A stretch of 64,000 bases of DNA from a virus, in IMG/VR virus record IMGVR_UViG_3300031758_000024, positions 34,583-98,582 of that record, one strand, 5' to 3'. Position numbers and translations under genes: made by a program. A model generated the notes under the pieces. The model saw only the letters and a program-made list of their open reading frames with translations. It had not been told where the DNA came from and did no database searches. Below, in pieces: positions 61,302-63,568 of this stretch. Position 1 is the stretch's first letter. Each line of letters opens with the position of its first letter.

Positions 61302-61344
61302 GTTGTTCCCCTGGGGTCTTCGGATCCTGGGGGAACTTCTTTTT
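61302..61344 (+). terminator. Cassette A terminator, UUCG loop
   Basis: Stem 61305-61316 with 61325-61336 (GTTCCCC paired to GGGGAAC plus inner pairs, some G-U) is closed by a TTCG tetraloop near 61319-61322, then TTCTTTTT. It terminates the 97-aa gene's transcript. First of six related copies. Confidence 0.85.
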
Positions 61345-61367
61345 AGGGATAGGCATCCAGCCATGCC
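61341..61367 (+). promoter_or_regulatory. Cassette A box and 5' stem
   Basis: TTTTAGGGATAGGC is the most divergent copy of the conserved box. GGCAT (61352-61356) pairs with ATGCC (61363-61367). AAAGGAGG and the start of the 30-aa gene follow. Possibly promoter and/or 5' end of the mRNA. Confidence 0.55.
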
Positions 61368-61394
61368 CACTACACCAAAGAAAGGAGGTGTGCA

Positions 61395-61487
61395 ATGTTG
61401 CAGATTCCGATGTACATCGTCGGCATCAGCATGCTTCTGATTGCAGAGGTCACGTTCTTCGTGGACCTGTTCAAGAAGAAGGACTGA
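61395..61487 (+). CDS. 30-aa single-pass membrane peptide
   Basis: A very short gene with an excellent site (GAAAGGAGG 6 nt before ATG 61395): MLQIPMYIVGISMLLIAEVT then FFVDLFKKKD. One hydrophobic helix followed by a basic end predicts a membrane peptide with the C-terminus inside. It stands alone between cassettes A and B, so it is an independently expressed unit. Role unknown; it might alter the host membrane. Confidence 0.72.
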   Translation: MLQIPMYIVGISMLLIAEVTFFVDLFKKKD

Positions 61488-61558
61488 TTCCATACTGTCA
61501 CCATAGGGTGGCCGAGCAGTAGTGACGCTTGGGAACAGGATAATCACTAAAAGGAATT

Positions 61559-61584
61559 GGTTCCTTCGGGAACCTTTTTCTTTG
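61559..61584 (+). terminator. Cassette B terminator, UUCG loop
   Basis: A perfect 6-bp stem GGTTCC (61559-61564) / GGAACC (61569-61574) is closed by TTCG, followed by TTTTTCTTTG. Shortest stem of the six, with the same loop as copies A and E. Confidence 0.82.
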
Positions 61585-61602
61585 AGGATAGACCATTATC
61601 CT
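61581..61602 (+). promoter_or_regulatory. Cassette B box and 5' stem
   Basis: TTTGAGGATAGACC is the consensus box. AGGATA (61585-61590) pairs with TATCCT (61597-61602), so the box itself forms one arm. About 146 nt of untranslated leader follow before the 3-TM gene. Confidence 0.55.
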
Positions 61603-61748
61603 TAGCGCAGAACCTGAGCGCTCTATAAATCATGGGTGACGCAGCAGGAGCTAAATGCCTGACAGGTTATCTTACCTTGACAAAAGAGAAACGTAATAAT
61701 CATGTTCGGTACGTTAAGCCGGACAAAAACATGTTTCTTGGAGGAATC

Positions 61749-62015
61749 ATGTTCGGAATCAACAACAAGATCACCCTCGTGGTGACTTCCATCATTTGTG
61801 TGCTCCTCGTTCTGGAGCCCACTTCGGACATAACGGTGGGGATCATCTCCCTGCCGTTCGTCCTGGTCAGGATGATCCTGGGCTTCGGCATCAGCATCAT
61901 CAACTGGCCGATGTTGGTGGTCATTTCGATTGGAGCGGGAGTTGCCTTCGTGGCGAAAACCCGTACGGTCGACTGGGCCGAAGTCAAGGCCTTTTTCCGC
62001 TCGGAAGAGGTCTGA
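61749..62015 (+). CDS. Small three-helix membrane protein
   Basis: Start chosen at ATG 61749 with GGAGG 4-5 nt upstream (MFGINNKITLVVTSIICVLL, 88 aa); an upstream extension to 61632 has no such site. Three hydrophobic helices (ITLVVTSIICVLLVLEP, VGIISLPFVLVRMILGFGI and INWPMLVVISIGAGVAFV) are followed by a charged C-terminus (WAEVKAFFRSEEV). Unknown role; possible membrane effector against superinfection or a holin-like protein, though no lysis gene neighbours it. Confidence 0.7.
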   Translation: MFGINNKITLVVTSIICVLLVLEPTSDITVGIISLPFVLVRMILGFGISIINWPMLVVISIGAGVAFVAKTRTVDWAEVKAFFRSEEV

Positions 62016-62055
62016 TCATTCCTGGTGATGAGTCCACCAGATGAGCAATGGGATT

Positions 62056-62100
62056 GTTTTCCCCGGGGATCGAAAGGTCCTCGGGGAAACTTTCTTTTTT
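62056..62100 (+). terminator. Cassette C terminator, GAAA loop
   Basis: A long stem from 62056 to 62090 (GTTTTCCCC with GGGGAAAC) with a GAAA loop at 62072-62075 and TTTCTTTTTT after it. Compared with cassette D, differences in the stem keep pairing. Confidence 0.85.
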
Positions 62101-62133
62101 GACAATAGACCTGCGAACAACAAGTAACAGGTC
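62097..62133 (+). promoter_or_regulatory. Cassette C box and 5' stem
   Basis: TTTTGACAATAGACC is a variant box containing an exact TTGACA. GACCTG (62108-62113) pairs with CAGGTC (62128-62133). GGAAAGG and the ATG at 62146 follow directly. Confidence 0.55.
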
Positions 62134-62145
62134 GGAAAGGTAGTC

Positions 62146-62604
62146 ATGCAGTTCACGACAGAGTACAGTGGAACCATCTCCATTATTTGGGATGGTGAAG
62201 CAATTACTCAGGTAACCCTGGGCATCGGGACCGGTTGGCAGAAGGCCATTGCCAGGTCATACCTGGAGGATGGACAGATCATCTTCTCACGGGAAGATGC
62301 TCCTGCGGGGACGATCTGGGCTCTGAACAAGGAGGAGATGGAAGAGATCTCCCTCATGGGCGGACCAGTGAAACTGTACGCCGATGACTTGTACTCCATT
62401 CGGGTAATCCCCGAGTGGTGGTCGGTGGAATGTCAGATGGCTGCTGAGGGTGAATGCCCCGAGTGGCCATTGGCAGAGGAGAACATCGGTGGGGAGGACC
62501 TGTGGAAAGGATTCTCTCTCTTCTCTATGCTGCTGCAAATCAATGATGACGAATCCCAGGATAACTGGGATGGAGAGGAGGATGAAGGTCCAGATTTCGT
62601 CTAG
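62146..62604 (+). CDS. 152-aa acidic protein, unknown
   Basis: The protein starts MQFTTEYSGTISIIWDGEAI at an ATG following GGAAAGG. A beta-rich body (EDGQIIFSREDAPAGTIW, VKLYADDLYSIRVIPEWW) ends in a strongly acidic tail (DDESQDNWDGEEDEGPDF). No known domain is evident. It is a single-gene unit between cassettes C and D. Acidic small proteins in early phage regions often inhibit host factors, but there is no evidence here for a target. Confidence 0.7.
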   Translation: MQFTTEYSGTISIIWDGEAITQVTLGIGTGWQKAIARSYLEDGQIIFSREDAPAGTIWALNKEEMEEISLMGGPVKLYADDLYSIRVIPEWWSVECQMAAEGECPEWPLAEENIGGEDLWKGFSLFSMLLQINDDESQDNWDGEEDEGPDFV

Positions 62605-62608
62605 GGTT

Positions 62609-62661
62609 GTTTTCCCCGGGGATTGGCAGAAATGCTGGTCCTCGGGGAAACTTCTTTTTTT
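62609..62661 (+). terminator. Cassette D terminator, GAAA loop
   Basis: Stem from 62609 to 62651 (GTTTTCCCC with GGGGAAAC), longer inner part (GGATTGGCA with TGCTGGTCC, G-U pairs) and a GAAA loop at 62629-62632, then CTTCTTTTTTTG. It begins 5 nt after the upstream stop codon. Confidence 0.85.
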
Positions 62662-62706
62662 GAGGATAGACCAATGGTCTTTCCCTAGGCTTGAGCCACA
62701 GCCTAG
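62657..62706 (+). promoter_or_regulatory. Cassette D box and double 5' stem
   Basis: TTTGAGGATAGACC is the consensus box. AGACC (62668-62672) pairs with GGTCT (62676-62680), followed by a second hairpin CTAGGCT (62685-62691) / AGCCTAG (62700-62706). AAAGGAGG then precedes the gene. Confidence 0.55.
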
Positions 62707-62737
62707 CCATCCCGGCGAAGTGGCAAAGGAGGTCGAG

Positions 62738-63019
62738 ATGAAACTCGACATCCAATGGTGGGCAACCACCTCAACGTCCTTTGTGGGGTTCATTCCTCAT
62801 GAAGGACAAACCTTTGTGGTCCGGGAAATCCCGGGTCACGAAGGTCTCGTTGGCCAATTGGCTGACGAGGTAACCCTGACCCACATTGGTGGACAGGATG
62901 GGGAAATCCCCGCCCTGTTCGCCATTGTGCATAAGGGTTACATGAAAGAGGGGATTCGTCTCCTCTTTCCACTCCTGGATGTCCCTAATGGGATTCTCCA
63001 GGATGTTACCTACCTCTGA
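62738..63019 (+). CDS. 93-aa protein, unknown
   Basis: Start chosen at ATG 62738 because AAAGGAGG lies 5 nt upstream; the longer open frame reaches back into cassette D. It reads MKLDIQWWATTSTSFVGFIP with a mixed beta/alpha body (QTFVVREIPGHEGLVGQLAD) and ends GILQDVTYL. Single-gene unit between cassettes D and E. No family recognised. Confidence 0.7.
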   Translation: MKLDIQWWATTSTSFVGFIPHEGQTFVVREIPGHEGLVGQLADEVTLTHIGGQDGEIPALFAIVHKGYMKEGIRLLFPLLDVPNGILQDVTYL

Positions 63020-63034
63020 GAGGTGGGTAACACT

Positions 63035-63080
63035 GTTTCCCCTGGGGTCTTCGGGCCCTGGGGGAAACTTCCTTTTTTGA
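63035..63080 (+). terminator. Cassette E terminator, UUCG loop
   Basis: Stem from 63035 (GTTTCCCC) to 63068 (GGGGAAAC) closed by a TTCG loop near 63050-63053, followed by TTCCTTTTTTGA. Similar to copy A, with stem substitutions that keep pairing. Confidence 0.85.
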
Positions 63081-63098
63081 GGATAGGCCACCCAGGCC
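63075..63098 (+). promoter_or_regulatory. Cassette E box and 5' stem
   Basis: TTTTGAGGATAGGCC is the box with GGCC instead of GACC. GGCC (63086-63089) pairs with GGCC (63095-63098). AAGAAAGGAG and the kinase ATG follow. Confidence 0.5.
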
Positions 63099-63121
63099 AG
63101 TCCAAGAAAGGAGAGGGAGCA

Positions 63122-63499
63122 ATGACAAAGCTCCTAATCATTCGTGGCTTACCCGGTTCGGGTAAAAGTACGTTGGCTGCCGAGATGGCACCCAATGCGT
63201 GCTTTGAAGCAGATACCTATATGGTAGACGCTTCGGGTAAGTACGAATTCGATCATTCTCGCCTCGCTGAAGTGCACGAAAAGTGCTTTCAAGCGGTGCG
63301 AGAAGCTCTTGTTGCAGGTACCCCAGTGGTAGCTGTGGCTAACACGTTCACCCGGACGTGGGAGTTTGCTAAGTATATTGACTTAGCGCAAGAGCTTGGT
63401 GTAGATCACGAGATAATCGTGTGCACCGGGTCCTACGGTAACATCCACGGCGTTTCACCTGAAATGGTGCAGCGCATGAGAGAAAGGTGGGAAGCCTAA
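63122..63499 (+). CDS. P-loop kinase-like protein (AAA_33 / polynucleotide kinase-type)
   Basis: Start chosen at ATG 63122 with AAAGGAG upstream (125 aa); an upstream in-frame start lies inside cassette E. The sequence has Walker A IIRGLPGSGKST near the N-terminus, FEADTYMVDASGKYEF with acidic residues, LAEVHEKCFQAVREAL, and VVAVANTFTRTWE, the layout of small ATP-binding kinases related to polynucleotide kinase. The substrate could be RNA/DNA ends or a small molecule; not determinable. It may repair nucleic acid ends in phage-host RNA conflict. Confidence 0.82.
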   Translation: MTKLLIIRGLPGSGKSTLAAEMAPNACFEADTYMVDASGKYEFDHSRLAEVHEKCFQAVREALVAGTPVVAVANTFTRTWEFAKYIDLAQELGVDHEIIVCTGSYGNIHGVSPEMVQRMRERWEA

Positions 63500-63510
63500 C
63501 GAAAAAGGTT

Positions 63511-63546
63511 GTTCCTGGGGAGAAATCCCTGGGAACTTCCTTTTTT
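63511..63546 (+). terminator. Cassette F terminator, GAAA loop
   Basis: Stem 63511-63521 with 63526-63536 (GTTCC... / ...GGGAAC, G-U pairs) closed by GAAA at 63522-63525, then TTCCTTTTTT. It lies 11 nt after the kinase stop codon. Confidence 0.84.
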
Positions 63547-63568
63547 GAGGATAGACCAACCGGGTCTA
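63541..63568 (+). promoter_or_regulatory. Cassette F box and 5' stem
   Basis: TTTTTTGAGGATAGACC is the consensus box. TAGACC (63552-63557) pairs with GGTCTA (63563-63568). The LysM gene follows after a 56-nt leader with GGGAGG. Confidence 0.55.

Follow-up and report, generated by a model that had tools for sequence, protein, structure and literature searches.

What kind of element stands before each of six consecutive small genes at the end of a large virus record, and how would it act? The DNA analyzed here, which we call the window, is the final 64 kb (64,000 nucleotides) of the 98,582-bp virus record IMGVR_UViG_3300031758_000024, and the end of the window is the end of the record. At 61302-63571, on the + strand only, it carries six copies of an intergenic cassette (Table 1). 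The original prediction, made from the letters of the DNA, had described a terminator, a T-run, a box, and a strong Shine-Dalgarno sequence at six genes, and all six units were borne out, with the order GC-rich hairpin, T-run, box, spacer, Shine-Dalgarno sequence, and start codon before each gene. A hairpin with a T-run precedes every one of the six boxes, and all six are among the predicted terminator-like matches, of which a scan of 8 kb returned 15, versus 6.5 ± 2.2 in shuffled sequence. The Shine-Dalgarno sequence lies 3' of each box as a separate site, and the box itself is found about 30 to 190 nt or more from the start codon.

With fair but not high confidence, we read the cassette as a composite of terminator, transcription-start element, 5' stem-loop, and ribosome site, present once per gene in a hyperplastic accessory region. 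The intrinsic terminator would close the message of the preceding gene, while the T-run, four bases, and ATAG would mark a transcription start, and the first base of the RNA would most likely be the purine right after the T-run. The first 20 to 25 nt of the new RNA would then fold into a stem-loop, probably shielding or marking the 5' end, and the separate Shine-Dalgarno sequence would drive, as a rule, one small gene. The resulting messages would be single-gene RNAs with a hairpin at each end, and the common cassette ends could act as joints for swapping genes, leaders, and terminators within a poorly conserved island of small genes. The parts, their fixed spacing, the RNA pairing, the restriction to one lineage, and the occurrence of different terminators before the same gene and leader can be read directly from the DNA.

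The conserved core and its stem-loop

The box GAGGATAGACC had been described as nearly invariant. The repeated motif is real, but this sequence is exact in only three of the six copies in the window and within one mismatch in four, and with two mismatches allowed it occurs 18 times in the whole window, weakly above the 11.3 expected by chance. What is invariant across the related phages (records G001 to G009, described below) is a T-run, exactly four variable bases, and ATAG. Among 85 distinct copies, the last three T's, the stretch of four variable bases, and TAG are all fixed, and an A precedes TAG in 79. The search pattern itself demanded TAG, hence a reverse check that started from T-runs: on the + strand of six islands, 60 of 78 runs of at least five T's have NTAG at +4 (or at +3, counting one T), and a further 3 are a C-interrupted form. 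The same arrangement follows 1 of 17 T-runs on the minus strand of the islands and 21 of 1,048 in the rest of G002. The gap from T-run to ATAG is four in 57 copies, three in 4, and eight in 3, with no copy at any other gap between 1 and 10.

The three parts of the cassette appear to be separable, since detached T-runs exist as well as AT-rich copies with little pairing. In G004 and G006, the terminator can have its own U-run, with the T-run of the box some 12 to 20 nt further on, and in other copies from G005, G006, and G007 a strong hairpin is either absent or found only well upstream. The AT-rich copies, found in G005 and G006, keep the T-run, four bases, and ATAG with almost no downstream pairing. 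Judged by these copies, the T-run/ATAG is an element of its own and its T-run is not merely a terminator tail.

On folding, the box forms the 5' arm of another hairpin, one that the original prediction did not mention; in most copies this hairpin begins at or near the first base after the T-run. Conserved pairing had been set beforehand as a test of the cassette idea, and it is present: boxes with their own downstream partners gave a mean duplex energy of -8.8 kcal/mol versus -6.4 kcal/mol with permuted partners (z = -10.9, 0 of 20,000 permutations), a score that, like the other permutation z-scores, is inflated by the kinship of many copies. Equally long stretches upstream of the box, used as a control, gave z = -1.8 and -0.3, and permutation by part gave z = -5.6 for the outer bases alone and z = -6.6 for the inner AGRCC. 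After thinning for similarity to 53 copies, full inner pairing was found in 22, against 14.2 for swapped partners and 3.8 when the downstream sequence was shuffled. In a gap-free subset of 16 copies (alignment A2), the inner helix exchanges AU/GC, CG/UA/AU/GC, and CG/GC, with 13 double changes (0 of 500 shuffles); because full inner pairing was the criterion for choosing this subset, its being 100% paired is no evidence, and it is the double changes that count. Exchanges in the outer helix, read from the folds, include GACA/TGTC, GATTA/TAATC, GAGTA/TACTC, GCC/GGC, GCGCC/GGCGC, and TTGCC/GGTAA. Such a variety of pairing exchanges seems hard to explain otherwise, despite the kinship of the copies.

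Compensatory base changes together with exact spacing in diverged copies therefore point to selection on both the RNA structure and the motif. This bears on the simplest alternative, that the cassettes are passive repeats, i.e., recently duplicated spacers with ordinary terminators that are retained as recombination sites and have no role in starting or processing RNA. Entire stretches, both terminators and leaders, are indeed reused between genes, within and between genomes, as such spacers would be, but the covariation already disfavors this explanation and we give it very little credence. An arrangement in which every gene is preceded by structured RNA and followed by a terminator would also suit an antitermination element, in which the transcribed stem-loop of the box acts on RNA polymerase to pass the next terminator; the put RNA of phage HK022 is a transcribed RNA that acts on the polymerase in this way. 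However, a pure RNA element needs neither a conserved T-run nor exact spacing, stem sequence and loop differ widely among copies, and the AT-rich copies have no stem-loop, so that we consider antitermination improbable.

Start site or processing joint

The first base after the T-run (base 0) is G or A in 77 of the 85 copies and C in one, unlike bases 1 and 2 of the same helix, where C is common. A purine bias at this position is as expected of a start site. Initiation is favored by this bias, the orientation of the copies, the fixed spacing, and the tandem copies, as boxes that follow each other with no intervening gene in G005 and G006 fit tandem starts. We infer that the T-run/ATAG would initiate transcription, that the stem-loop would stabilize the RNA, and that the cassette genes would be expressed early; each of them could probably be turned on, and exchanged, independently of the others.

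The position of the start was also considered within the motif itself. The four bases before ATAG seem to be transcribed, as they pair with bases further downstream and covary with them (GCCAATA with GGC, NNGCCTA with GGT, GCGCC with GGCGC). A T7-like start at the G of ATAG is disfavored for this reason, and the same objection applies to a start at ATAG with the T-run serving as the -10 element.

The main rival to a start site is an RNA-processing joint, which we hold to be the less probable reading while giving it a real chance. Readthrough from the AT-rich region before the island would yield a long RNA, a ribonuclease would cut in the U-run, and each message would be left with a 3' hairpin and a 5' stem-loop, the T-run and ATAG being RNA recognition features. 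Cleavage accounts for most of the same features, sharing both anatomy and RNA ends with the start model, and it would agree with both the long AT-rich control region ahead of the first island gene, conserved in six records, and the lack of a recognizable promoter within the island. On the other hand, it requires readthrough of successive strong terminators, does not predict the purine at base 0, makes the tandem boxes superfluous, and leaves unexplained why the T-run/ATAG is kept where the 5' stem-loop is nearly absent.

Several observations, besides the kinship of the copies mentioned above, weigh against the transcription-start reading. A T-run that ends at the start site differs from known bacterial promoters, and a scan of 60800-64000 returned no sigma70-type -35/-10 site, with an E. 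coli-type consensus that may not be that of the host. Family searches of the records gave no match to sigma70 region 2 (PF04542) or to T7-type or multisubunit polymerases (PF00940, PF00562; Rpb2), one of these searches having run without a positive control, and four giant proteins of G001 had no polymerase match either. A sigma-factor-like protein of 286 to 288 aa is encoded in G001 (L117, 844-1710) and G003 (L118, 1438-2298), on the basis of Sigma70_r4_2 scores of 28.7 and 25.7 bits and the PHROG annotation "RNA polymerase sigma factor," and it has no relative in the stretches of the cassette-bearing G002 or in the other comparison stretches. A phage polymerase or sigma factor as the reader of the motif was set aside on these negative searches and on the absence of the sigma-like protein from the G002 stretches.

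If transcription does start at the box, the cassette could tentatively represent an undescribed type of promoter, whose core of T-run, four bases, and ATAG straddles the start and is fused to a terminator on its 5' side and a stabilizing stem-loop on its 3' side, serving as the plug-in joint of this lineage. Its reader would be some phage or host factor, and the joint would collect single-gene units.

The box was also considered as a phage late promoter and rejected, as outside the island the motif occurs only at background level and the starts of long genes favor TTACTAT. The latter motif is enriched about sevenfold before long open reading frames (ORFs) in G001 and G002, often 25 to 45 nt ahead of the ribosome site. 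TTACTAT, which stands before many long (structural) genes and does not resemble the cassette box, may be a second class of promoter.

The island and its relatives

The G+C content of the window climbs from about 38% to 52% near 61,000, which places the cassettes in an island of shifted G+C content at the end of the record. The record ends 103 bases past the LysM gene, inside the island, and the number of cassettes in the window is therefore a minimum. Several records stop in or near the island (the window at 64000, G001 at its start, G003 at its end), perhaps because the repeated cassettes disrupt short-read assembly, in which case the island is likely longer than seen.

The carriers are a group of large freshwater bacterial viruses with IMG/VR records of up to 194 kb. 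The pattern TTTTTGAGGATAGRCC had repeated matches in several large IMG/VR contigs, and whole-record searches found blocks of copies, nearly all in the same orientation, in G001 to G009, with roughly 3 to 15 copies per record (G001 is 193,906 bp long, G002 179,608 bp, and G003 133,870 bp). The comparison records are all metagenomic and some are near-duplicates: the cassette region of G001 is identical to that of the window, and G004 and G005 have copies in common, as do G007 and G008, leaving about seven distinct islands. Outside the group, INPHARED (50,697 phage records) held no DNA relative of the cassette region, the strict 23-base form had no match in 84,980 GTDB prokaryote genomes, and the matches listed for the looser pattern CTTTTTTGNNNATAGRCC in other viral contigs were all without the hairpin unit. 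Searches with the protein sequences of RecA, the sigma-like protein, and a protein of 2231 aa turned up no closely related phage. Copies with the upstream GC hairpin are found in related genomes, where the original prediction had suggested looking for them, the unit is repeated with one copy per gene, and by these searches the cassette is restricted to one phage lineage.

The islands change rapidly and share little gene content. The 103 ORFs called mechanically, by crude ORF calling, group into 76 families, of which 61 are singletons. Cassette units mostly contain one gene each, and the stop codon is mostly 45 to 140 nt from the next box. The LysM gene occurs with the same leader in the window and G002, yet the terminators before it are unrelated, as recombination at the joints would predict. 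Family searches of the six cassette gene products found domains only in the AAA_33 and LysM proteins, the other four being without match.

Table 1. Positions of the cassette parts and genes in the window and of Pistol ribozymes in related records
Feature	Position	Strand	Basis or relatives
Cassette 1 terminator and T-run (predicted)	61305..61344 (stem 61305-61336)	+	terminator scan
Cassette 1 box AGGGATAGGCA (start 61345) and 5' stem-loop	61345..61368	+	folding
30-aa ORF behind cassette 1	61395..61487	+	no family match
Cassette 2 terminator and C-interrupted T-run (predicted)	61559..61583 (stem 61559-61574)	+	terminator scan
Cassette 2 box GAGGATAGACC (start 61584) and 5' stem-loop (GAGGATA/TATCCTT)	61584..61603	+	folding
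88-aa hydrophobic protein behind cassette 2, after a long structured leader	61749..62015	+	relatives behind boxes in other islands
Cassette 3 terminator and T-run (predicted)	62058..62100 (stem 62058-62089)	+	terminator scan
Cassette 3 box GACAATAGACC (start 62101) and inner stem 62108-62133	62101..62145	+	folding
Cassette 3 possible outer pairing GAC/GTC	62101-62103 with 62143-62145	+	
152-aa protein behind cassette 3	62146..62604	+	no family match
Cassette 4 terminator and T-run (predicted)	62611..62661 (stem 62611-62650)	+	terminator scan
Cassette 4 box GAGGATAGACC (start 62662) and 5' stem-loop	62662..62684	+	folding
93-aa protein behind cassette 4	62738..63019	+	relatives in G003, G004, G006
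Cassette 5 terminator and T-run (predicted)	63035..63078 (stem 63035-63068)	+	terminator scan
Cassette 5 box GAGGATAGGCC (start 63079) and 5' stem-loop (GGAT.GGCC/GGCC.GTCC)	63079..63103	+	folding
125-aa P-loop kinase-like protein (AAA_33) behind cassette 5	63122..63499	+	Pfam PF13671 E 1.3e-13; phrog_2071 E 1.7e-27
Cassette 6 terminator and T-run (predicted)	63511..63546 (stem 63511-63536)	+	terminator scan
Cassette 6 box GAGGATAGACC (start 63547) and 5' stem-loop	63547..63571	+	folding
90-aa LysM protein behind cassette 6	63625..63897	+	Pfam LysM 21.0 bits, cut-off 20.9
Pistol ribozyme, L069	15274-15341	+	Rfam
Pistol ribozyme, L115	2724-2791	+	Rfam
Pistol ribozyme, L075	4413-4480	-	Rfam

The surroundings of the cassettes have features of their own. 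At the island border, a 72-aa zinc-ribbon protein (60346-60564, - strand) is found in most of the same related records and has a weak, subthreshold similarity to the Lar restriction alleviation protein. A short leader ORF (60792-60815, 7 aa in the window, MS[TI]C...-like) with a strong ribosome site follows AT-rich repeated sequence and precedes the first island gene, and it has the same place in G002, G003, G004, G006, and G007. An alignment with GATAAT ahead of the island, considered for the reading of the T-run as a -10 element, was dropped, as inspection by eye showed this GATAAT to overlap both the start codon and the ribosome site of this ORF. Pistol ribozymes above the Rfam gathering score lie beyond the cassettes, on the same strand, in G002, G007, and G009; they were the only Rfam families found in the related islands, all outside the cassettes, and Rfam covariance models against 56000-64000 of the window gave chance-level matches only.

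The long leaders of the small hydrophobic protein family (61690-61724 in the window; G002, G003, G004, and G007) share the motif AACGTA..GTTCGG-TACGTT-AAG-CCGGAC. It can be read as an H-type pseudoknot, with the loop TACGTT against the upstream AACGTA and a stem that varies as CGG/CCG, CAG/CTG, and CAA/TTG, followed in the window by a possible hairpin at 61730-61753, around the ribosome site. This leader had no match in the Rfam searches of the window and the related islands, and it could be a translational control element.

Comparison with known phage cassettes

The closest design match is the promoter-early stem-loop (PeSL), reportedly a mobile regulatory cassette of T4-like phages (Arbiol et al. 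2010 and Comeau et al., as cited in PMC4503421). Both are composite intergenic units that join a terminator stem-loop to a start element, the latter predicted here, and both occur in many copies in a hyperplastic accessory region. Modular shuffling at the units, a further likely point of similarity, would fit the unrelated terminators before the LysM gene and leader in the window and G002. Terminator-type stem-loops are predicted in all six units of the window and in most copies of the other islands, and the diversity of ORF families and the shift in G+C content agree with hyperplastic clustering. The cassette differs in having a T-run, four bases, and ATAG, to which the start function would fall, in adding a covarying stem-loop at the 5' end of the mRNA, and in belonging to another phage lineage. 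As the strong sigma70-like early promoter that defines PeSLs was not found by the scan described above, we call the cassette PeSL-like and do not file it as a PeSL.

The start-associated sequences (SAS) of cluster K mycobacteriophages had been named as a partial parallel, with the ribosome site separate here. That difference stands, and the likeness itself turned out to be weak. SAS and the extended form (ESAS) are, like the box, short repeated motifs with an upstream inverted repeat at many nonstructural genes, and there is little support for RNA hairpins formed by these inverted repeats (PMC3203893; PMC12699233). The SAS includes the core of the Shine-Dalgarno sequence and is typically separated from the start codon by 3 to 7 bp (PMC3203893), whereas the cassette box is placed well upstream, lacks the ribosome site, stands behind a terminator, and covaries as RNA. 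No cassette has the 13-bp GGGATAGGAGCCC, ribosome site included, a few bases from its start codon, and by position and content the box is not a cluster K SAS.

A functional analogy may be drawn with the host-takeover module of Bacillus phage SPO1, in which small genes with strong ribosome sites are clustered and start sites are numerous (PMC6873191); the cassette genes are small as well. The SPO1 genes form multigene operons, whereas the cassette units mostly contain one gene, and a common terminator-box-hairpin unit is not described in PMC6873191.

Phage morons are single accessory genes flanked by their own start and stop signals. The cassette genes are likewise framed singly, but here many adjacent genes use one standard cassette.

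The cassettes suggest that PeSL-type units of terminator and start element are not confined to T4-like phages and can have another start signal and include a further RNA element. Should the T-run/ATAG core be a promoter, it would point to an unrecognized polymerase specificity and provide a compact, insulated expression part. Dozens of natural variants of each cassette part are available as a testable set. More generally, such cassettes may be a way for large phages to assemble interchangeable collections of accessory genes.

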